Made by a program: the position numbers and the translations under genes. From Azonexus sp. R2A61 (GTDB taxonomy: Bacteria; Pseudomonadota; Gammaproteobacteria; Burkholderiales; Rhodocyclaceae), in assembly GCF_021401135.1 (NCBI RefSeq), contig NZ_JACBFO010000001.1, forward strand, positions 682,001 through 746,000: 64,000 nt of DNA, in the 5' to 3' direction. Under the pieces are notes generated by a model. That model worked only from the letters and a program-made list of their open reading frames with translations, was not told the origin of the DNA and ran no database searches. Shown piece by piece: positions 34,098 to 61,201 of the stretch (position 1 is its first letter; every line of letters starts with the position of its first letter).

Positions 34098-35274
34098 TCT
34101 GGGCTTCGGCGTGCCAGTGCTTGTGGCCGTAGCCGGCGATGCCGACCAGCGCACGTATCAGGCCGTAGCTCAGCCAACTGAGCAGCCTTGCCGGCCAGGC
34201 CCGGGTGGCCAGGTCGCCGGCCCGAATCTCGCGGGCGCCGTCGGCGATGGCGTCGTGCAGGCTGGCGCGTAGTTCGCCGGCAAACTGCGCGTCGCGGACG
34301 AACAGGTTGGCCTCCTTGGCAAGCAGCAGGCTGAACGGATCGATGTTCGACGAACCGACGGTTGCCCAGTCCCGGTCGATCACGGCGACCTTGGCGTGCA
34401 GGAAGCTCTTTTCGTATTCGAAGATGCGGATGCCGGCCTTCAGCGCCGCGGCATAGAGCGTGCGTGTCGCGTGATGCAGCAGCGGATGGTCGCTCTTGCC
34501 CTGGAGCAGGATGCCGATCCGTACGCCGCGCCGGGCGGCGGCGAACAGCGCGCGGCCGAAGCGGATGCCGGGCAGGAAGTAGGCATTGGCGATCAGGATT
34601 TCCACCTCGGCGGCGTCGATCGCGTCGATGTAGGCGTTCAGGATGTCGTTGCGGTGGCGGATGTTGTCGCGGATCAGGAAGGCGGCCTGTTGCGTGCCGG
34701 CAAGCTCGCAGCAGGGCTGATGCAATGGCCGGATGCGGAAACGCCGCTTGAAGTTGACCCAGGTGACGATTTCCCACATCCGGCGGGCCGCGTGATGCAC
34801 CTGCGCCAGCACCGGGCCTTCGATGCGCACCGCGTAGTCGTAGCGCGGGCGCATGTCTTCGGGGGCGTTGTCGTCGTCGACGATGTTGATGCCGCCGACG
34901 AAGGCGACGCGCCCGTCGATCACCGCCAGTTTGCGGTGCAGCCGACGCAGGCGGTGGCGGGCCAGGCGCAAGGAGCCCAGTTCGGGGCGGTAGAACAGGG
35001 TGCGGACGCCGGCGGCGGACAGTTGCGGACGGAAATCGGCGGCGAAATTCCGGGCGCCGAAGCCGTCGACCGTGACATTGACCGTGACGCCCCGGCGCGC
35101 CGCCGCGCACAGCGCCGAGGCGACTTCATGGCCGACCGCGTCGTTGGCGAAGATATAGCTTTCGAGGTAGATCTCGCGTTGTGCCGCGGCCAGCGCGGCA
35201 AGCAGGGCGGGAAAATAGGCCCGGCCGGAGTTGAGCAGGGTCAGCTGGTTGCCGGGGAGGAACTCAGTATCCAT
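34072..35274 (-). CDS. clsB: Cardiolipin synthase B
   Basis: Phospholipase D-superfamily enzyme of 400 residues that forms cardiolipin at the inner membrane. Two HKD motifs are visible: HRKLAVIDGRVAFVGGINI and HAKVAVIDRDWATVGSSNIDPFS. The N-terminal segment lacks transmembrane helices, the ClsB pattern rather than ClsA. It overlaps the ybhP gene by 11 bases; the same neighbour pair (ybhP-clsB) is found in E. coli. Confidence 0.92.
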   Translation of the reverse strand: MDTEFLPGNQLTLLNSGRAYFPALLAALAAAQREIYLESYIFANDAVGHEVASALCAAARRGVTVNVTVDGFGARNFAADFRPQLSAAGVRTLFYRPELGSLRLARHRLRRLHRKLAVIDGRVAFVGGINIVDDDNAPEDMRPRYDYAVRIEGPVLAQVHHAARRMWEIVTWVNFKRRFRIRPLHQPCCELAGTQQAAFLIRDNIRHRNDILNAYIDAIDAAEVEILIANAYFLPGIRFGRALFAAARRGVRIGILLQGKSDHPLLHHATRTLYAAALKAGIRIFEYEKSFLHAKVAVIDRDWATVGSSNIDPFSLLLAKEANLFVRDAQFAGELRASLHDAIADGAREIRAGDLATRAWPARLLSWLSYGLIRALVGIAGYGHKHWHAEAQISRRPPAP

Positions 35275-36040
35275 GCACCGTCAGGTGGGCCGACAACGCC
35301 GCATGATCGGAGATGGCCGACCACGGGGCGCCGAAATGCACTTCGGTCTGGGCGATCTTGAAGCCACGGACGTAGATGCGGTCGAGCCGGAACATCGGCA
35401 GGGCCGCCGGAAAACTGCGTACCGGCCGGCCGGCCGGCGCGCTGAAGGCTTCTTGCAGGTCGAGGCGGCGGGCCAGGTGTTCGCAGGCGCGGCTGCGCCA
35501 GTCGTTGAAGTCGCCGGCAACGATCAGCGGGGCGCCTGGATCGTCGAGGCGGTCGAGATAATCGGCCAGCGCATCCATCTGGCGGCGGCGGGAATGGCCG
35601 AACAGCGACAGGTGCACGCAGACGCAGTGCGCCGCCGGGCCGTTGGGTAGTTCGATCCGGCAGTGCAGCAGGCCGCGCTTCTCGAAGTGCAGGTGGGTGA
35701 CGTCCTGATTGTGCGCGTGCAGGATGGGAAAGCGCGACAGGATCGCGTTGCCGTGGTGGCCGTGGTCGTAGACCATGTTGCGGCCATAGGCCGACTGCCA
35801 GATTTCCTCGGCGAGGAATTCGTGCTGCGGTCGACCGGGCCAGTCGGCATGTTTTTCCGCGTGCCCCAGATGCAGGCCCTGGACTTCCTGCAGGAAGACC
35901 AGGTCGGGGTTCAGATGGCGCAAGCGCTCGCGCAGCTCATGCACCATCATCCGCCGGTTGAATTGCGAGAAGCCCTTGTGGATGTTGTAGGTGGTGATGT
36001 GAATTATGTTCTTATCTCTTTGATTAGTAACAGTATTCAC
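35264..36040 (-). CDS. ybhP: Endonuclease/exonuclease/phosphatase family protein YbhP, with N-terminus supplied by the mobile element
   Basis: EEP-fold protein (258 residues as it now reads) with TTYNIHKG, LVFLQEVQG, VYDHGHHGNAILSRFP, VAGDFNDWR and ISDHAALSAHL motifs. In E. coli ybhP lies beside clsB. The first 13 residues, M-N-T-V-T-N-Q-R-D-K-N-I-I, come from AT-rich island DNA: a GTG at 36040 with GAGGT eight bases before it. Host DNA resumes at H-I-T-T-Y. The native start (M-S-R-P-L-H-I-V-T) is at 41889-41915, next to nadA. The catalytic core is intact, but whether this version is expressed without its operon promoter is unknown. Confidence 0.85.
   Translation of the reverse strand: MNTVTNQRDKNIIHITTYNIHKGFSQFNRRMMVHELRERLRHLNPDLVFLQEVQGLHLGHAEKHADWPGRPQHEFLAEEIWQSAYGRNMVYDHGHHGNAILSRFPILHAHNQDVTHLHFEKRGLLHCRIELPNGPAAHCVCVHLSLFGHSRRRQMDALADYLDRLDDPGAPLIVAGDFNDWRSRACEHLARRLDLQEAFSAPAGRPVRSFPAALPMFRLDRIYVRGFKIAQTEVHFGAPWSAISDHAALSAHLTVHGY
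35988..36001. other. Left attachment junction of the integrated element
   Basis: TAGGTGGTGATGTG marks the change from GC-rich ybhP codons to AT-rich DNA. It matches TAGGTGACGATGTG at 41887-41900 in 12 of 14 bases, with the two differences in the centre. This is the pattern expected of attL/attR made by a tyrosine recombinase. Confidence 0.75.
36020..36036 (+). repeat. Left copy of subterminal 17-bp repeat (possible integrase arm site)
   Basis: TTGATTAGTAACAGTAT; the partner at 41853-41869 is TTGATAAGTAACAGAAT (15 of 17 identical, same orientation). The two lie 18 and 17 bases inside the left and right junction repeats, as arm-type sites would. Confidence 0.5.
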
Positions 36041-36058
36041 TTTTAAAGACCTCGATTT

Positions 36059-36087
36059 TTCACCCAGTTTTTAGCAACTGCTATACT
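36059..36087 (+). promoter_or_regulatory. Probable integrase promoter
   Basis: TTCACC (36059-36064) and TATACT (36082-36087) with a 17-base spacer. The start of transcription would fall near 36094, so the integrase most likely starts at the ATG at 36128 rather than the ATG at 36092. Confidence 0.6.
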
Positions 36088-36127
36088 GTGCATGTTATCA
36101 ACCTTTTCTTGCAAACATCCACAGATT

Positions 36128-37333
36128 ATGGCCTACCTCTTCAAATCAGGAAATAACACCTATTACAGGGTCACAATAAATAGAAAAGGTCACAAGGTCA
36201 ATAAGCTTTTCCACTCATTTAAAGAAGCAGATAGATTTGAGAAAGCTACAAGAGAAGCAATTGATGCAGGAACTTATATTGATGAAGATACAAAGCTCTT
36301 ATTAATTCCCACAGTTAGAACTTTATTAGAAGATTACTTTACTCTTATTGAGAATAATAATTCTCACTATGTAGCTTATAAACAAACAATCAAGAACAAG
36401 AGATTTAAGTTACTAACTCAAATTCCATCAGTGCAAATTACTTTGCCTGATATGCAAGTCTATTACAGCAATTACAGAACAATAAACAATTCAAATCTTG
36501 ATGGCTCTGTTCCATTAGGTGACTTCTATATTGATACTGTTGATGATTATTTAATTAGAAGATATGTAGAAGCAAGAAAAGAAGCAGGTTTAAAAGATGG
36601 CTCAATAAGTACAGAAGTCATTTATATTAAGTCAGCTTTTAAAGTAGTTAATAGACTGTATCCACAGTTAAAGAGTGAAGATATATTTATCCAAAATCCT
36701 TTTGATGCTTTAACTAGGGCAGATTTGCCAAAGAGGTCACCATCTAGAAAAAAGATTATTAGTCAAGAGAATTTAGATAAAGCACTAGAATTTTTCAGCA
36801 GTAAGAAAAATAAACAATATTTACTTGCATACAAAATTTGTTTGGAAACAGGTTTAAGAAAAACTGAATGCTTGTCAATTCAACTTCAAAATGTCAGCAG
36901 GGAAAAGGGGGAGATTTATCTACCCATCACCAAAAATGGCAGGCCAAGAACTGTAAAGATAAGTGAAGAAATTTTGTCTTTATTGCCATTGGAAGAGATT
37001 ACAGGCCCACTGTTCACCATTTCAGTGTCAGCTATTAACATGGAATGGTCCAGGTGCTTTAAAACCCTCCCAAAGGGTTCTAGACCTGTTTGGCACAGTC
37101 TCAAAAACACAGCCATTAGCAAAGCATTAAGTGACAGTAAAGAGTTCCAAATTGCTGAAAACTTCCAAATTAGTGTTGAGTCACTAAAACAATATCAGCA
37201 AGATGAAGAACTACAAAAATTCTTTGAAAAGCTTTTGAGAGGTGAAAAGCCAACAGCAGAAGAAGCTTCAAAATATATTGGTGGTCACTCTTCATTAGGC
37301 ATGACACAAAAATATTTTGTAGATAAGAAATAA
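36128..37333 (+). CDS. int: Tyrosine recombinase/integrase
   Basis: Site-specific recombinase of 401 residues predicted to integrate and excise the island. An N-terminal arm-binding-like region (MAYLFKSGNNTYYRVTINRKG) and a SAM-like core-binding region precede the catalytic domain. Catalytic residues by pattern: Arg244 in TGLRKTE, Lys in ITKNGRPRTVKI, His323 in HSLK, His387 in GGHSS, nucleophile Tyr396 in TQKYF. Lys326 replaces the second catalytic Arg of the usual HxLR, and about 60 residues separate that box from GGHSS, more than usual. The start at 36128 is chosen from promoter position and family-like N-terminus. Confidence 0.88.
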   Translation: MAYLFKSGNNTYYRVTINRKGHKVNKLFHSFKEADRFEKATREAIDAGTYIDEDTKLLLIPTVRTLLEDYFTLIENNNSHYVAYKQTIKNKRFKLLTQIPSVQITLPDMQVYYSNYRTINNSNLDGSVPLGDFYIDTVDDYLIRRYVEARKEAGLKDGSISTEVIYIKSAFKVVNRLYPQLKSEDIFIQNPFDALTRADLPKRSPSRKKIISQENLDKALEFFSSKKNKQYLLAYKICLETGLRKTECLSIQLQNVSREKGEIYLPITKNGRPRTVKISEEILSLLPLEEITGPLFTISVSAINMEWSRCFKTLPKGSRPVWHSLKNTAISKALSDSKEFQIAENFQISVESLKQYQQDEELQKFFEKLLRGEKPTAEEASKYIGGHSSLGMTQKYFVDKK

Positions 37334-37377
37334 TTGTGCTAGTGTTACTTTGTAACTATTTACTAGGAGTAATTTAA

Positions 37378-37563
37378 ATGTCTAAGGCTGTTGAAATTCA
37401 AAAGCAAAAGGAAGAATTGCAAAAGCAACTTGCTTCACTTGAAATTGAGCAAGCTAAAATCATTGAAGCTGAACAAGATAAATGGATTGCAGACCACAAA
37501 CAAGAAATGGAAGCTTTGGGTTTGTATGCAATGAAGAAAGGTGGAGCCAAGAAGAAGAAGTAA
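37378..37563 (+). CDS. Small coiled-coil protein with basic tail
   Basis: A 61-residue protein: residues 1-45 are a heptad-rich helix (QKQKEELQKQLASLEIEQAKIIEAEQ-type) and the end is GGAKKKK. AGGAG nine bases before the ATG and a strong terminator after the stop support a real gene. The layout, helix plus basic tail, suggests oligomerisation with nucleic-acid binding, for example an accessory factor of the integrase or a small nucleoid protein. No family is recognised. Confidence 0.65.
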   Translation: MSKAVEIQKQKEELQKQLASLEIEQAKIIEAEQDKWIADHKQEMEALGLYAMKKGGAKKKK

Positions 37564-37582
37564 TTATTCTTCCATCAAAAAC

Positions 37583-37612
37583 AAAAGGACTCTTTTTAGA
37601 GTCCTTTTTTTA
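37583..37612 (+). terminator. Intrinsic terminator after the coiled-coil gene
   Basis: AAAAGGACTC, loop TTTTTA, GAGTCCTTTT and further Ts: a textbook 10-bp hairpin with T-run, 20 bases after the stop codon. Because the stem is A/T-flanked on both sides it could also stop leftward transcripts from the converging gene. Confidence 0.9.
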
Positions 37613-37621
37613 TTTCTTAAA

Positions 37622-38134
37622 TCATTGCCCCCTAATTGGGTAAGTACTTAAAGCAACAATATCAGGATGGCTTTTATCTCCTAAACCCAAAGATTCAACC
37701 TTGCTCAAAACTAAATCTTTTTGAGCTTTACTAACATACATTTTATTGCCAATAGGTCCAGAAAAATCAGCTAGTAATTTCTTTCCTGCTGGTGATAGCT
37801 CATTAGAAAATAAATCAATTTCAGTTTTGCTTTCTAATGGCTTATCAATTGCTTTTGGTGTTACTGCTTTTAATTCATCTGCTTTTGGCCTTTTGCTTTT
37901 ACCTGAGCATTCATAATAGTATTTTAAGAATGTATTGAAGGATATTGTTCTCTTGTTTATTTGGAAAATATCCAGTTTCTTTATTATTTCATTATAGACT
38001 TCATTAAGGCTAAATCCATATTCTAGTTTTGCCTTAATCTTAGGATATACATATTCCATACTGCTCTTAATATTGCTTGTTTCTTTCTTTCTACCTGTCA
38101 AATTGCTATTAAATATTTCATCTATATCTTGCAT
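37622..38134 (-). CDS. Putative TraK-like accessory transfer protein
   Basis: A 170-residue basic protein. The ATG at 38134 has AAGGAG eight bases upstream; longer in-frame openings continue into the intergenic region but lack a start signal. The middle segment, IKAKLEYGFSLNEVYNEIIKKL...KRTISFNTFLKYYYEC, resembles the G-x-S-x-x-x-I ... I-S-x-x-T-F-x-x-x-V pattern of the TraK/oriT-binding group of IncP and IncQ-like plasmids. The C-terminal half (residues about 95-170) is unlike anything I recognise. Divergent orientation from mobC across an inverted-repeat region fits an oriT-binding role. The match is weak, so treat as hypothetical. Confidence 0.5.
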   Translation of the reverse strand: MQDIDEIFNSNLTGRKKETSNIKSSMEYVYPKIKAKLEYGFSLNEVYNEIIKKLDIFQINKRTISFNTFLKYYYECSGKSKRPKADELKAVTPKAIDKPLESKTEIDLFSNELSPAGKKLLADFSGPIGNKMYVSKAQKDLVLSKVESLGLGDKSHPDIVALSTYPIRGQ

Positions 38135-38187
38135 ATAATATCTCCTTATATTATTAGATATATATAAAGTACAAGATAAATATAAAT

Positions 38188-38238
38188 TGTCAACTAGTAA
38201 ATAATATTTGTTGACATTCTGGAATAAATCAGTATAGG
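38188..38238. promoter_or_regulatory. Divergent promoter pair with inverted repeat
   Basis: TGTCAAC (38188-38194) and GTTGACA (38210-38216) are a perfect inverted repeat, and each contains a consensus TTGACA -35 pointing outward. Rightward, TATAGG lies 16 bases on (38233-38238); leftward, TACTTT lies at the same distance. They probably drive the mob operon and the TraK-like gene. Confidence 0.5.
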
Positions 38239-38332
38239 TATAAGTATGAGAGTAGTATAGATATAGATTTAATTGGGTGTTTACATATATGTGGCACTTA
38301 ATGGGAAGGACAAAAACAGCAAGGCTACTCAC

Positions 38333-38397
38333 ATCACCGTAGGTGATATGAACCTTGTTAGGACTTTGTCCTAATACCTAAAAGGGATTCTCCCTTT
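38333..38397. other. Candidate oriT region: three inverted repeats before mobC
   Basis: Within the 312-base gap between the divergent TraK-like gene and mobC lie three consecutive perfect inverted repeats: ATCACC-GTA-GGTGAT (38333-38347), TTAGGAC-TTT-GTCCTAA (38358-38374) and AAAGGGA-TTC-TCCCTTT (38381-38397). Position next to mobC and the dyad structure are what an oriT shows; the nic site cannot be named. The repeats could instead be attenuator hairpins in the mob leader. Confidence 0.5.
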
Positions 38398-38446
38398 ACC
38401 CTTTTAAAGTCAAAACCATATTGCTCTCTTTATATAAGGAGCAGTC

Positions 38447-38842
38447 ATGGAAGAAAAAGAAAAAAAGACTTTGCCAGAGTTTTATAAAAGGAAGCCTGCT
38501 AGAACAAAAAGAATTGAAGTCTTATTGTCCCAAGATGAATTTGAGTTATTGCAATTTCATTTGCAGAAGAAATTATATGCAGGCAATAAATCAGGTAGGC
38601 CAGATTTTTTTAGAGCTTGTATTCAAAATCCCATTGAGCCAGAAATTCACAATTACAAAATTAGGCTCTTAAAAGAACTAAATAAAATTGGAGTAAATTT
38701 AAATCAAGGTGTAAAAGCTTTGCATATTTTGAATCACAAACTAAATGATTCACCATATAAGCCAGAACATCATCAAGCATTAATTGATGCAACTAAATCT
38801 TTAATTGCAATTGAGCAAGCAATTAAGGAGTTAAGAAAATGA
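38447..38842 (+). CDS. mobC: MobC-like mobilization accessory protein
   Basis: A 131-residue protein. The N-terminal part, KRIEVLLSQDEFELLQFHLQ, looks like a ribbon-helix-helix DNA-binding element. The later LLKELNKIGVNLNQGVKALHILNHKL matches the MobC signature around I-G-x-N-L-N-Q. MobC binds oriT and helps the relaxase open the strands. AAGGAG lies six bases before the start. The stop overlaps the relaxase start by four bases, as in ColE1-type mob operons. Confidence 0.8.
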   Translation: MEEKEKKTLPEFYKRKPARTKRIEVLLSQDEFELLQFHLQKKLYAGNKSGRPDFFRACIQNPIEPEIHNYKIRLLKELNKIGVNLNQGVKALHILNHKLNDSPYKPEHHQALIDATKSLIAIEQAIKELRK

Positions 38843-40251
38843 ATATCTCATTTTTCCCAACTGGTCAAAATTGTGTTAATTCAGCAATTGCATATGTGTT
38901 TGGTGAAATAGATTCAAAAGGAATAAAAAGAACTATTGAACCTGAATTGCTAAGAGGTGACCCTGAACTAGTTAAATCTGTTTGTGATGAAACAGACAGG
39001 TTATATAAATATACAAGTGGCTCACTTAATTTTGCATTAGGTGAAAGACCTAATGACATACAGATTGCAAATGTTATTGATGACTTTGAAAGAAGAATGT
39101 TTGCAGGGTTAGATAAATCTTCTTATGCAATGATGTGGGTGAAGCATGAAAATGCAGATGGAAAAATAGATTTGCATTTCATAACACCAAGAACAAATTT
39201 AGATACTGGTCAAGCAATGAATATTAAGCCACCTGGTAAAGGTATGGAGTTAAGTTTAGATGCTTGGAGAGACACAATAAATCATCAATTGGGTTATCAA
39301 AGAGTTTTAGAAAGTCCTGAAATTAAGGACAATAAAACAGCTTGGGAAAATCATGGTGACAGCAAAAAATCTATTGATGCAGAAATAAAGCTGTTAGTAA
39401 ATTATGGTGATATTAAAAGTAGGGATGAAATTAAAGAGTATTTAAAGAGTGAAGGATTCACTATTGAAAGAGATACAAAATCATCAATCTCTATTAATAG
39501 GCCTGAATGGAAAGAAGAAAATAAAAAAAATATTAGATTAGAGGGAGGTATTTATGAGCAAGGATTTAATTTTAGAAAAGAGGATAGAGAGCATAGTTAC
39601 AGAGAAAATTCAAGAGGGGGTAGTGAATACTCTAAATCCATTGCTGAAGCAGCAAGAAGACTTGATGAATTTACAAAGCAAAGAACTGAGTTCAATGAAA
39701 AAAAATATGGAGGTATTCAACAGCAGACTTATGAAAACCAACTTACAAATGCTTCTATCTCCATTGCTGATAGGAATAATTTTAATGAGTTGTCTAATAA
39801 GTTGGGGCCTATATCAAGCAAACCAAATAACAAAGAACTCTCAATTACTAGTGGTGGGGGAAAATCAAATGATGTTAGAAATAAACAACCCCAAATATCA
39901 TTACCAGCAAACAACAATAGAGGGGAAAGAGTACATAATAATCAAGAAGAAATAAAATCTTCCCCTATTGTTTCAACACCAACACAGCAACAAACTATTT
40001 CCAGCTCATCAATGGGAATAAATAAAGCTGCCAAGGTTCAGGGTATTGAGGGTTCATTGAGTTCTATCAAAGCTCAATTAATTGCATTAGGTGGTAAATT
40101 TTCAAATGACCCTAATGAAGCAATGAAATTATTTGCTCAAATAAATAGCTTAAAAGCACAAGAACAACAATTATTAGTTCAGCTTCAACAAGCTAAATTA
40201 GAATTGAATGGTAAGAGTTTACAAATAAAAGATGGTGGTATTTCTTTATAA
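38839..40251 (+). CDS. mobA: MOB-HEN family relaxase (MbeA-like)
   Basis: A 470-residue DNA-nicking enzyme predicted to cut oriT and lead the transferred strand. The metal/catalytic triad HEN is at residues 103-105 in MMWVKHENADGKIDLHFITPR, the hallmark of ColE1 MbeA-type relaxases. A candidate nucleophile is Tyr19 in NSAIAYVFG. From about residue 245 the protein becomes low-complexity, Asn/Gln/Ser-rich, with a helical C-terminus. Residues about 239-372 are also read in another frame as a nested gene, which may explain the unusual composition there. Confidence 0.85.
   Translation: MNISFFPTGQNCVNSAIAYVFGEIDSKGIKRTIEPELLRGDPELVKSVCDETDRLYKYTSGSLNFALGERPNDIQIANVIDDFERRMFAGLDKSSYAMMWVKHENADGKIDLHFITPRTNLDTGQAMNIKPPGKGMELSLDAWRDTINHQLGYQRVLESPEIKDNKTAWENHGDSKKSIDAEIKLLVNYGDIKSRDEIKEYLKSEGFTIERDTKSSISINRPEWKEENKKNIRLEGGIYEQGFNFRKEDREHSYRENSRGGSEYSKSIAEAARRLDEFTKQRTEFNEKKYGGIQQQTYENQLTNASISIADRNNFNELSNKLGPISSKPNNKELSITSGGGKSNDVRNKQPQISLPANNNRGERVHNNQEEIKSSPIVSTPTQQQTISSSSMGINKAAKVQGIEGSLSSIKAQLIALGGKFSNDPNEAMKLFAQINSLKAQEQQLLVQLQQAKLELNGKSLQIKDGGISL
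39554..39955 (+). CDS. MbeB-like mobilization protein nested inside the relaxase gene
   Basis: A 133-residue frame lying wholly within the relaxase gene in the +1 frame. It is supported by GAGGGAGG seven bases before the ATG, the strongest ribosome-binding site of the island. The product has a helical N-terminal half (about 1-60), one transmembrane helix (LLSPLLIGIILMSCLISWGL, about 69-88) and a short hydrophilic end. ColE1-type operons carry mbeB and mbeD overlapping mbeA in the same way, and MbeB stabilises the relaxase at oriT and the membrane. No mbeD equivalent is seen. Confidence 0.75.
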   Translation: MSKDLILEKRIESIVTEKIQEGVVNTLNPLLKQQEDLMNLQSKELSSMKKNMEVFNSRLMKTNLQMLLSPLLIGIILMSCLISWGLYQANQITKNSQLLVVGENQMMLEINNPKYHYQQTTIEGKEYIIIKKK

Positions 40252-40327
40252 GTTGCTTCTAGCAACCAATTGAACAGAGTTCAATAAACAGAGGTTTTGA
40301 TTTTGGTTTTTGTTTTTAGATAATAAA

Positions 40328-40351
40328 AAAGCTCTAGATTAAGAGAGCTTT
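40328..40351 (+). terminator. Terminator after the mob operon
   Basis: AAAGCTCT, an eight-base loop, AGAGCTTT and then ATTTATTT, about 75 bases after the relaxase stop. The A-run before the stem makes it usable from either direction. Confidence 0.7.
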
Positions 40352-40450
40352 ATTTATTTGAGTAAGGAGTACCCGTCACTTACTGCACTACCAATCAGAA
40401 TTTAGTCTCATTGCAAGACATATATATATTGTATTCTGCATTATTGATTT

Positions 40451-40493
40451 TGTCAATATATTCATTGACAAATAATTAATATTTGCTATCATA
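40451..40493 (+). promoter_or_regulatory. rep promoter with overlapping inverted repeat
   Basis: TTGACA (40466-40471), 16-base spacer, TATCAT (40488-40493): a near-consensus promoter. TTGTCAAT (40451-40458) and ATTGACAA (40465-40472) form a perfect inverted repeat over the -35, a likely operator. Confidence 0.65.
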
Positions 40494-40515
40494 TTTATAC
40501 CAATCAGGAGTAAAT

Positions 40516-40587
40516 ATGTATAACAATAATAATACAGAATTCTTTATATTGGTTAGTCTAGGATTAACCAATTATGCAGGTAGATAA
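40516..40587 (+). CDS. Short leader peptide overlapping the rep start
   Basis: A 23-codon open frame with CAGGAG six bases before its ATG. It ends 14 bases beyond the rep ATG in another frame. A ribosome translating it would unwind the hairpin at 40549-40571 and end next to the rep start, the arrangement used for translational coupling of replication proteins in other plasmids (for example repY-repZ). The peptide itself looks unimportant. Its function is inference. Confidence 0.5.
   Translation: MYNNNNTEFFILVSLGLTNYAGR
40549..40571 (+). promoter_or_regulatory. Hairpin covering the rep ribosome-binding site
   Basis: TTGGTTA and TAACCAA are perfectly complementary; the nine-base loop contains AGGA, the only Shine-Dalgarno-like sequence before the rep ATG at 40574. 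The structure sits inside the leader frame. Confidence 0.5.
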
Positions 40588-41593
40588 TACATTAACAAGA
40601 TTTTATAATCACTTATCTACTGTTGATAAACTGCAATGTGCAAATAAGTTTGATGATGGCATTAGTTTATTGCCTTTGAATTATGCAAAGCACAAGAAGA
40701 ATATACAAGTTCACCCATTCAAAAAGCAATATATAGCTCTTGATATTGATTATCCAATAACAAGATTTGAGATTGTAAAAATGGGTTTTAAACTGCCAAC
40801 AATCTTTATACAGAATCCAAAAAATGGACATGCTCATATTCTGTATGAATTAACTTGTCCTGTATCTTTCCAACCCAACAGCAGAAAAGCCCCTCAAAAG
40901 CTCTTTAAAGAGGTTTCAAAGGTATTGGGTGAGGAAATGGGAGCAGATGAAAACTATGCAGGCCATTTCATCAAAAACCCACTTAATAAAGCCTGGACAG
41001 TTCATACTAATGATGTCACTTATGAATTAAAAGACTTTCTTGCAGACAGTGAAAGCTTAAATAAAGACTATTCAAAAGCAGTCAGCAGTAAAAACATTGA
41101 GATTGGAAGAAATCAAACAATCTTTGACACAATAAGAAAAATAGCTTATCAAAGTGTTTTGTTTGCTACTTGTCCAAAAGAATTTAAAGAACAAGTATTA
41201 AATGATTGTAAAACACTAAATCAATCATTTGATAACCCATTAACAGGTAAAGAAGTAAAACAAATTGCTACATCAATATCTAAATGGGTTTGGAATAAAA
41301 AAGCATCAATCATTGCCAATGATAAGCAATCAAAGAAAAATATTGGAATAATGGGATTTGGCCCTAATGCTTTACAGGGTGCAATACCTGTAAATGCTGA
41401 TGAAGTCAAAACAAGACAATCAGCAGGAGCAAAGTACACAGCAAATATAAAATCATCAGCAACATTAAAAACCCTTCAAAAGGCTTTTAAAGAGCTTTCT
41501 AATGCTGTATATACTCCAACACAAAAGGAACTAGCAGAACATACTAAATTAGGTATTGCAACAATTAAAAGACATTGGAAGTCTATTATTTAA
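40574..41593 (+). CDS. rep: ColE2-type replication initiation protein
   Basis: A 339-residue protein with the Replicase/ColE2 Rep organisation. An N-terminal primase-like domain contains YIALDIDYP (residues about 53-61, probable metal acids), PTIFIQNPKNGHAHILYELTCPV and AGHFIKNPLN. A PriCT-like segment follows (LTGKEVKQIATSISKWVWNK), then a C-terminal DNA-binding end (PTQKELAEHTKLGIATIKRHWKSII, helix-turn-helix). ColE2 Rep binds the origin and makes the primer itself. The gene suggests the element can replicate once excised. The start is chosen from the leader overlap; the ribosome-binding site is weak unless unfolded. Confidence 0.82.
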   Translation: MQVDNTLTRFYNHLSTVDKLQCANKFDDGISLLPLNYAKHKKNIQVHPFKKQYIALDIDYPITRFEIVKMGFKLPTIFIQNPKNGHAHILYELTCPVSFQPNSRKAPQKLFKEVSKVLGEEMGADENYAGHFIKNPLNKAWTVHTNDVTYELKDFLADSESLNKDYSKAVSSKNIEIGRNQTIFDTIRKIAYQSVLFATCPKEFKEQVLNDCKTLNQSFDNPLTGKEVKQIATSISKWVWNKKASIIANDKQSKKNIGIMGFGPNALQGAIPVNADEVKTRQSAGAKYTANIKSSATLKTLQKAFKELSNAVYTPTQKELAEHTKLGIATIKRHWKSII

Positions 41594-41606
41594 TTGTATT
41601 TTAAAA

Positions 41607-41636
41607 AGGTATCATTAGGTATATCAGGTAAATAGT
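41607..41636 (+). other. Candidate replication origin repeats
   Basis: Three AGGTA units at 41607, 41617 and 41626, about one helical turn apart, directly after the rep stop. ColE2-family origins lie just downstream of rep and contain short direct repeats bound by Rep. The assignment rests on position and spacing only. Confidence 0.35.
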
Positions 41637-41743
41637 ATTTATACAGTAGTAAATCTATATAAATAGATATAAGAATAAATTAAGAGATATAGATATATGT
41701 TGCTTTTAGCAATAGGGTTTATATTCACAAAGTGAATAAAAAA

Positions 41744-41760
41744 GGGCAAAATTTTCGCCC
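41744..41760 (-). terminator. Leftward terminator near the right end of the element
   Basis: On the minus strand GGGC-GAAAATTTT-GCCC is followed by TTTTTTATT. It would stop transcription entering the element from the nadA side. The rest of the 295-base stretch after rep is AT-rich with no gene visible. Confidence 0.5.
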
Positions 41761-41852
41761 CGCCTCACCCCATAAGCCACAAATCCAGATCCATCAAAAC
41801 ATTCTATTTAGCAGTATCTAGCAATTCACCAGTTTTGACCATCTGTAACACG

Positions 41853-41869
41853 TTGATAAGTAACAGAAT
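41853..41869 (+). repeat. Right copy of subterminal 17-bp repeat
   Basis: TTGATAAGTAACAGAAT, direct partner of 36020-36036. It ends 17 bases before the right junction repeat. Confidence 0.5.
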
Positions 41870-41886
41870 AAAAAATGTGTAAGTAA

Positions 41887-41900
41887 TAGGTGACGATGTG
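41887..41900. other. Right attachment junction of the integrated element
   Basis: TAGGTGACGATGTG, 12 of 14 identical to the left junction at 35988-36001. To its right GC-rich host DNA resumes with the lost 5' codons of ybhP. Confidence 0.75.
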
Positions 41901-41915
41901 CAGCGGCCGGCTCAT
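41889..41915 (-). pseudogene. ybhP: Stranded native 5' end of ybhP
   Basis: On the minus strand, ten bases after the nadA stop, an ATG at 41915 opens M-S-R-P-L-H-I-V-T and then runs into element DNA. Joined to host codons at the left junction it restores MSRPLHI(V/T)TYNIHKGF, the normal N-terminus of this EEP family. It shows that nadA, ybhP and clsB formed one operon before insertion. Confidence 0.85.
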
Positions 41916-41925
41916 GGGCGTCCGA

Positions 41926-43023
41926 TCAGGAAATCTCCAGCATCCGGTCGAGCGCCAGACGGGCGAATTTCACCTCGTGTTCCGGCACCTTGATCTGGTT
42001 GACCACCTTGCCGTCGACCAGGTTTTCCAGCGTCCACGCCAGGTGCTGCGGGTCGATGCGCTGCATCGTCGAGCACATGCAGACGGTGGTCGCCATGAAC
42101 TGGACGATCTTGCCTTGTGGCAGCACCTCTTTCGCCAGACGGTCGACCAGGTTGAGTTCGGTGCCGACCAGCCAGCGCGTACCGGCCGGCGCTTCCTTGA
42201 TCGTCTTGACGATGTGCTCGGTCGAACCGACGTAATCGGACGCCGCGCAGACCTCGAAATTGCACTCGGGGTGAGCGATCACTTTGCCGTCCGGGTACTT
42301 GGCGCGGAAAGCATCGATGTGCGACTTCTGGAACATCTGGTGCACCGAGCAGTGACCCTTCCAGAGCAGGATTTTTGCCTTTTTCACCTGATCGACCGTC
42401 AGACCGCCCATTTCCAGGTCCGGATCCCAGACGACCATCTCGTCCATCGGGAAACCCATCTGGTGGCCGGTCCACCGGCCGAGGTGCTGGTCGGGGAAGA
42501 ACAGCACCTTGGGCCGCTGCGCGAAGGCCCACTTGGCGATGGTGCCGGCGTTCGACGAGGTGCACACGATGCCGCCGTGTTCGCCGCAGAAGGCCTTCAG
42601 GTCGGCCGCCGAGTTGATGTAGGTGACCGGCGTGACCTCGTTCTCGACGTCGATCACCGAAGCCAGTTCGCGCCAGCAGCGTTCGACTTTGGCCAGGTTG
42701 GCCATGTCGGCCATCGAACAGCCGGCGGCAAGGTCGGGCAGGATGGCGATCTGGTGCGGCGCGGTCATGATGTCGGCGACTTCGGCCATGAAATGCACGC
42801 CGCAGAAGATCACGTACTCGGAATCGGTCTGCGCCGCCAGCTTGGACAGCTTCAGCGAATCGCCGGTGAGGTCGGCGTGCTGGTAGACGTCGGCGCGTTG
42901 ATAGTGGTGCCCGAGGATCACGGCACGCTTGCCGAGCTTGGCGCGGGCGGCGCGGATGCGTTCCTGGCAGGCGTCGTCGGAGAGCTTGTTGAACGGGTCG
43001 AAGGCGATGGTCGCGGTGTGCAT
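41926..43023 (-). CDS. nadA: Quinolinate synthase
   Basis: [4Fe-4S] enzyme that condenses iminoaspartate with dihydroxyacetone phosphate in NAD biosynthesis. The 365-residue protein contains ILGHHYQRADVYQHADLTGDSL, VIFCGVHFMAEVADIM, LPDLAAGCSMADMA and the C-terminal MCSTMQRIDPQHLAWTLENL; three cysteines (FCG, ECN and MCS contexts) are placed for cluster binding. The ATG at 43023 matches family starts. It was the gene before ybhP until the island separated them; no nadB or nadC lies here. Confidence 0.95.
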   Translation of the reverse strand: MHTATIAFDPFNKLSDDACQERIRAARAKLGKRAVILGHHYQRADVYQHADLTGDSLKLSKLAAQTDSEYVIFCGVHFMAEVADIMTAPHQIAILPDLAAGCSMADMANLAKVERCWRELASVIDVENEVTPVTYINSAADLKAFCGEHGGIVCTSSNAGTIAKWAFAQRPKVLFFPDQHLGRWTGHQMGFPMDEMVVWDPDLEMGGLTVDQVKKAKILLWKGHCSVHQMFQKSHIDAFRAKYPDGKVIAHPECNFEVCAASDYVGSTEHIVKTIKEAPAGTRWLVGTELNLVDRLAKEVLPQGKIVQFMATTVCMCSTMQRIDPQHLAWTLENLVDGKVVNQIKVPEHEVKFARLALDRMLEIS

Positions 43024-61124: not shown

Positions 61125-61201
61125 CCGCCCGTAGCTCAGCTGGATAGAGTACTGCCCTCCGAAGGCAGGGGTCGTGCGTTCGAATCGCGCCGGGCGGGCC
61201 A
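61125..61201 (+). tRNA. tRNA-Arg (anticodon CCG)
   Basis: A 77-base cloverleaf can be folded: acceptor CCGCCCG/CGGGCGG, D-arm GCTC...GAGT, anticodon stem CTGCC/GGCAG with loop CTCCGAA (anticodon CCG), T-arm GTGCG-TTCGAAT-CGCGC, discriminator G and encoded CCA. It reads CGG. A strong terminator follows. Confidence 0.96.

Follow-up and report, generated by a model that had tools for sequence, protein, structure and literature searches.

A 5.9-kb block of plasmid-like DNA in the chromosome of Azonexus sp. R2A61 is very probably an integrative mobilizable element (IME) that its own integrase placed in the 5' codons of a ybhP-like gene, to which it probably also gave a new start; judged by its gene content, the element may be capable of excision and of transfer with outside help. 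The window analyzed is the whole stretch of 64,000 nt taken from contig NZ_JACBFO010000001.1 (positions 682,001-746,000). Within it, the element lies between nadA and the ybhP-like gene, both on the minus strand, and is set apart by its base composition, as the remainder of the window has 64.5% GC. The features that delimit it, in window positions, are as follows:

35264-36040, minus strand: predicted hybrid ybhP-like gene (endonuclease/exonuclease/phosphatase family), 258 aa, PF03372 (E 4.9e-23)
35988-36001, minus strand: integrase-side copy of the attachment core, which reads CACATC-AC-CACCTA on this strand and forms ybhP codons H-I-T-T-(Y)
36002-41886, no strand: element body between the two cores, 5885 bp, 31.6% GC
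36020-36036, plus strand: 17-bp direct repeat TTGATTAGTAACAGTAT, adjoining the left core, candidate integrase arm site, 15/17 match to its partner
41853-41869, plus strand: 17-bp direct repeat TTGATAAGTAACAGAAT, adjoining the right core, candidate integrase arm site
41887-41900, minus strand: nadA-side copy of the attachment core, which reads CACATC-GT-CACCTA and forms codons H-I-V-T-(Y)
41901-41915, minus strand: displaced original ybhP start ATGAGCCGGCCGCTG, M-S-R-P-L, with a similar reading at the same position in relatives

The two core copies, TAGGTGGTGATGTG (35988-36001) and TAGGTGACGATGTG (41887-41900), are identical at 12 of 14 positions, and both mismatches fall in the exact center, which suggests that the integrase may tolerate mispairing in the exchanged segment. 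When the host flanks are joined via either copy (MSRPLHITTYNIHKGF or MSRPLHIVTYNIHKGF), they read MSRPLHI(T or V)TYNIHKGFSQFN, that is, MSRPLHI(T/V)TYNIHKGF, in frame. A preliminary description of this DNA had proposed an insertion in the 5' codons of ybhP with both halves of the gene identifiable, and the joined flanks and the uninterrupted relatives agree with it. Its placement of nadA ten bases upstream of the original start was likewise exact, with the nadA stop codon at 41926-41928 and the ybhP ATG at 41913-41915. The AT-rich edge that it had set at 41888 requires correction, as the right-hand core starts at 41887. The 14-bp repeats do consist of ybhP codons, as it had stated, but they encode H-I-(V/T)-T and reach two bases into the Tyr codon, rather than encoding T-Y-N-I-H-K, and they differ at the two central positions; the conserved NIHKG therefore falls just outside the repeat. 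Its view that the target is protein-coding DNA and not a tRNA gene was sound, the sole tRNA gene found in the window (61125-61201) being distant from the element.

A search for the ybhP part in 60 genomes, including that of the host, found it in 57; all 56 relatives with the gene, out of 59, were read at the insertion site. At the level of sequence comparison, the insertion point within ybhP is thereby established. The tail of nadA stands at most 100 bases upstream of ybhP on the same strand in 22 of the 56, and in some others, L006 and L008 among them, the available stretch showed no nadA tail. The three closest nadA-linked relatives (L004, L005, and L007, with proteins 90, 89, and 86% identical) display the empty site that had been predicted, namely the end of nadA and, after a short gap, an ATG that opens MSQPAL or MSQPEL, followed by HIATYNIHKGF. 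NIHKG is kept in 55 of the 56 relatives, and five, all of the same genus, match the 12 outer core bases exactly. In the form present in the window, the left-hand core also occurs in L008 and L011, and the right-hand core in L029. An AT-rich ybhP N-terminus in relatives had been named as the observation that would speak against an insertion; the N-terminus of the element was found in frame before the ybhP core in none of the 56, among which L051 and L053 say little because their contigs end 94 and 19 bases upstream. Four relatives fall below 50% GC in the 300 bases upstream of ybhP (L062, L063, L065, and L071). L062 and L065 were considered as other insertions at the ybhP site and rejected, the entire 12.5-kb stretch examined being AT-rich.

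Beyond the cores, the paired 17-bp repeats (TTGATWAGTAACAGWAT) are identical at 15 of 17 positions, and one lies beside each core; in the circular form, they would therefore flank the core on both sides, as candidate arm sites of the integrase. When the 60-bp end segments were shuffled 2000 times, a match of 15/17 or better arose once; with the full non-coding end segments, it arose in 14 of 2000 shuffles. An inverted repeat, TATTCAC-AAA-GTGAATA, was also observed near the right end (window 41722-41738), and TATTCAC followed by TTT recurs at the left end (36034-36043). An Rfam scan of 35900-42000 returned two matches far below gathering scores, which were taken as chance.

The body of the element encodes the following:

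36128-37333, plus strand: tyrosine integrase, 401 aa, PF00589 (E 7.1e-11) and phrog_1 (E 2.3e-27)
37378-37563, plus strand: small lysine-rich, coiled-coil-like open reading frame (ORF), 61 aa, no family of note (best Pfam 0.041)
37622-38134, minus strand: unassigned protein, 170 aa from an inner ATG; a longer 236-aa frame runs from a GTG at 38332
38286-38430, plus strand: strongly structured region upstream of the mobilization genes, candidate origin of transfer (oriT) by single-strand DNA fold
38447-38842, plus strand: NikA/MobC-like relaxosome accessory protein, 131 aa, PF21983 (E 0.00035, below the curated cut-off)
38839-40251, plus strand: relaxase related to MbeA of ColE1, 470 aa, NF047848 (E 1.9e-38) and PF03432
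39554-39955, plus strand: ORF of 133 aa that overlaps the relaxase gene in a different frame; it has a hydrophobic stretch, and GGGAGGT precedes its ATG
40574-41593, plus strand: plasmid replication initiator with Replicase and PriCT_1 domains, 339 aa, PF03090 (E 3.9e-24) and PF08708 (E 2.2e-7)

The combination of tyrosine integrase, ColE1-like mobilization module, and plasmid replicase fits an IME, and the locus combines the characters by which IMEs are recognized: an integrase with a chromosomal position between attachment repeats, a relaxase, and no full conjugation apparatus. The mobilizable plasmid seen in the preliminary description was thus recovered by family searches for both mobilization and replication genes. 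The relaxase is a relative of MbeA and not MbeA proper, as judged from its score against NF047848 (132.9 bits, below the cut-off of 500), and it narrowly passes PF03432 (24.8 bits, cut-off 24.6). Among the matches listed (30 of 3542 records), its plasmid relatives are 28-33% identical; five of 395 genomes of the family, including the host, carry relaxase relatives, the other four at 27-33% identity. The Replicase domain scores 85.6 bits against a curated cut-off of 26, and plasmid relatives of the replicase are 29-34% identical among the matches listed (30 of 2921 records). No close relatives of the integrase or the replicase were found in viral contigs by tblastn.

Gene content and family searches detected no conjugation apparatus encoded within 36002-41886. 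PF03135 (VirB4/TrbE-type) had no match in the host genome, in a search that scored in one of 14 control genomes. The fold of the candidate oriT, a single stretch picked by eye, had a z-score of -3.67, and none of 200 shuffles was as stable. In ColE1, mbeB and mbeD overlap mbeA, and the 133-aa ORF is positioned likewise; it yielded no family of note in Pfam, phrog, NCBIfam, or PADLOC and no plasmid match. For the unassigned protein, the 236-aa form had no Pfam or NCBIfam match and a weak phrog match (0.0075), and the 170-aa form had no match in PADLOC or among plasmids; PADLOC likewise returned nothing for the three family-less ORFs of the element.

The catalytic set of tyrosine recombinases is R-K-H-R-H-Y, usually with a TxxY spacing. 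The integrase, which would reach 413 aa from an in-frame upstream ATG at 36092, was aligned with two relatives from elements inserted in rarA, and R244, K269, H323, and H387 were invariant among the three; Y396 fits the TxxY spacing but is displaced by one alignment column from the Tyr of both relatives. With a threshold of E <= 1e-20, the integrase was found in three of 395 genomes of the family, including the host, with the other two at 27% identity, and in one of 398 genomes of the phylum, the host itself. Plasmid and phage records gave only generic relatives among the matches listed (25.7% identity across 49% of the integrase and 28.8% across 37%), and the host genome holds one further weak match on contig C6 (23% identity, E 7e-5).

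The nearest integrases found were located by searching genome contigs for two peptide patterns; 228 stretches matched, four of which encoded relatives at 26-29% identity. These four (L037, L038, L039, and L040) come from a Propionivibrio metagenome-assembled genome (MAG), a Rhodoferax MAG, Zoogloea sp. LCSB751, and a Ramlibacter sp.; the Propionivibrio and Zoogloea relatives appear to coincide with the two other matches among the family genomes. In all four, the integrase diverges from the 3' part of a gene that we take to be rarA, at ...RFNK(A/G/S)QQD..., in the same orientation of integrase to target as at ybhP. The rarA frame is open across the junction into the element in all four genera, and the integrases are very alike by eye. 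The other end of the Propionivibrio element reads FVDEVHRFNK and then foreign sequence; with both ends read, its core is therefore about CG[C/T]TTCAACAA, likewise short and imperfect. The other end of the element was not found in the stretches of the Zoogloea contig that were examined. Because the nearest integrases found all occupy a single coding site of rarA, the use of protein-coding targets may be a trait of the clade, within which the integrases compared are distant (26-29%).

Around these rarA sites, further genes were observed. The Propionivibrio element splits rarA (L042 near 6202, minus strand) and yet carries a full-length RarA-like protein of 434 aa, with MgsA_C and AAA domains (L042:4759-6063, minus strand), just inside the end facing the N-terminal fragment of rarA; its MgsA_C domain supports the gene name, and it is possibly a replacement copy. 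Beside a rarA-type integrase, two very long genes (L035:13777-17001 and L035:10469-13810, both on the minus strand) look by eye like restriction-modification genes, and about 4 kb of this locus is 90% identical in the Zoogloea contig L036. We tentatively suggest, with less than even confidence, that a small divergent clade of integrases has specialized in short imperfect cores within conserved coding segments, the damage being compensated differently in each case, by a new start at ybhP and by a replacement copy at rarA.

At the ybhP site, the reading frame continues without a stop into the element as far as a GTG at 36040, a codon that GAGGT precedes by eight bases. The predicted hybrid would take its first 13 residues from the element and keep everything from HITTYNIHKG onward, and its NCBIfam matches are all below cut-offs. 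Given the in-frame GTG and the ribosome-binding-like sequence, translation of ybhP most likely continues, and the protein would then begin with MNTVTNQRDKNIIHITTYNIHKGF instead of MSRPLHI(V/T)TYNIHKGF. The earlier picture of a split gene is thus correct in that the original five codons were displaced, but what remains is probably a gene with a new start and not half a gene. The element also separates ybhP, together with the phospholipase D (PLD)-like gene behind it (PF13091), from nadA, so that the PLD-like gene could be affected too.

Several observations weigh against this interpretation. A scan for promoter consensus sequences across 35950-36250 gave two sites against 0.9 +/- 1.0 expected, the only one on the ybhP strand lying inside the integrase gene; because no promoter on that strand stands above chance, we infer the expression of the hybrid from its frame and start. 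Hence, ybhP may simply have been inactivated, with a fortuitous in-frame GTG, the more so as it and the PLD-like gene are now cut off from a nadA that lies within 100 bases in 22 of 56 relatives. We regard this outcome as a real possibility, though not the probable one, since the 258-aa frame is intact behind its ribosome-binding-like sequence, all residues from the core onward are retained, and a direct precedent exists in dusA (PMC8409611). At the junctions, the core match is only moderate evidence on its own because a 12/14 match between the two 74-base junction neighborhoods was reached in 17 of 2000 dinucleotide shuffles; the case therefore rests on the comparison with relatives, in whose ybhP both cores are in register. 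Cores this short and imperfect could also point to illegitimate or short-homology recombination without an integrase, which we consider improbable in view of the matching 17-bp repeat beside each core and of related integrases at one fixed site, one of them with a similarly short imperfect core. That the junction is an assembly artefact or chimera is hardly credible: the genome is a draft of 13 contigs and the GC step is abrupt, but the element is interior to its contig (~718,000-724,000), the same gene continues on both flanks, and the joined flanks are in frame as in relatives.

The integrase itself raises a further objection. Lysine (Lys326) occupies the position of the second catalytic arginine, the HxxR position that is usually Arg and is Arg in the two aligned rarA-type integrases, so that window 37094-37105 encodes HSLK against HDTR in both; this substitution may weaken or abolish activity. 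The structure prediction was too poor for use (mean pLDDT 60, pTM 0.36), and no excisionase was recognized in the element. The family, phylum, and contig-pattern searches yielded no further genome with this integrase at ybhP, so the choice of site rests on a single insertion. In view of Lys326, the element might be a stranded relic that arrived by site-specific recombination and became fixed once its integrase died, which would also accord with its single copy in the genome, the lack of a PF03135 match there, and the lack of a close integrase copy among the 394 further genomes of the family that were searched, two of which have one at 27% identity. This is less likely than not, as the integrase, mobilization, and replication frames are open over their full length, both cores and both 17-bp repeats are preserved, and the element still has its low GC content.

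The integrative mobilizable element favored here can be compared with known systems. SXT is a self-transmissible integrative and conjugative element (ICE), from which the ybhP element differs in having no conjugation apparatus. The ybhP element shares the MbeA-like relaxase and the PF03090 replicase with small mobilizable plasmids, but differs from them in carrying an integrase and in being chromosomal. With the rarA elements of Propionivibrio, Rhodoferax, Zoogloea, and Ramlibacter, it shares the nearest integrases, a conserved coding target, and the same orientation; unlike it, these elements lie within rarA and sever the N-terminal part of that gene, and the Propionivibrio one has a full-length rarA as well as large genes of restriction-modification-like appearance by eye. 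According to a report on dusA, IMEVchUSA3 supplies a promoter and an N-terminus to dusA and restores the frame, a lacZ fusion showing expression that was lowered but present (PMC8409611). The same source describes SXT in prfC as a parallel case of 5'-end insertion with a new promoter and N-terminus (PMC8409611). As in these gene-restoring elements, the end of the ybhP element provides an in-frame start, with the frame open to the ybhP stop. It also resembles the dusA elements, IMEVchUSA3 and the dusA integrase family, in having an integrase that targets the 5' end of a conserved protein gene (PMC4482086), and differs from them in its ybhP target and in its ColE1-like mobilization genes and plasmid replication gene within 5.9 kb, as opposed to an SGI1-like backbone. 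Among IMEs, insertion at a 5' end is described as the rarer mode, the recombining direct repeats are generally 8-60 bp, and plasmid-type replication initiators are carried by various elements (PMC5704250).

A plausible course of events would begin with a small plasmid that bore a ColE1-like mobilization module, a Replicase/primase-type initiator, and a tyrosine integrase. The integrase would have recombined the core of the element with the 14 bp formed by ybhP codons 6-10, so that 5.9 kb of foreign DNA now separates the first five original codons from the remainder of the gene. The integrase-side end would then supply the ribosome-binding-like sequence and the GTG in the ybhP frame. Excision would yield a circle able to replicate and to be nicked at oriT, and transfer would occur only with the conjugation machinery of another element.

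The strategy itself is known, as new N-termini created by 5'-end insertion have already been shown for dusA (PMC8409611); what is new is the target gene and the lineage. No report of ybhP or rarA as an integration site was found in the literature searched, which comprised mostly titles and abstract openings and is no proof of absence. The case brings ybhP into the set of protein genes that serve as attachment sites and offers a compact example of a plasmid turned integrative element. The rarA sister elements, one of them with its own rarA, would allow two ways of sparing the host to be compared among related integrases. If the hybrid start works, the ybhP insertion would support the view that such elements persist by not destroying their target.

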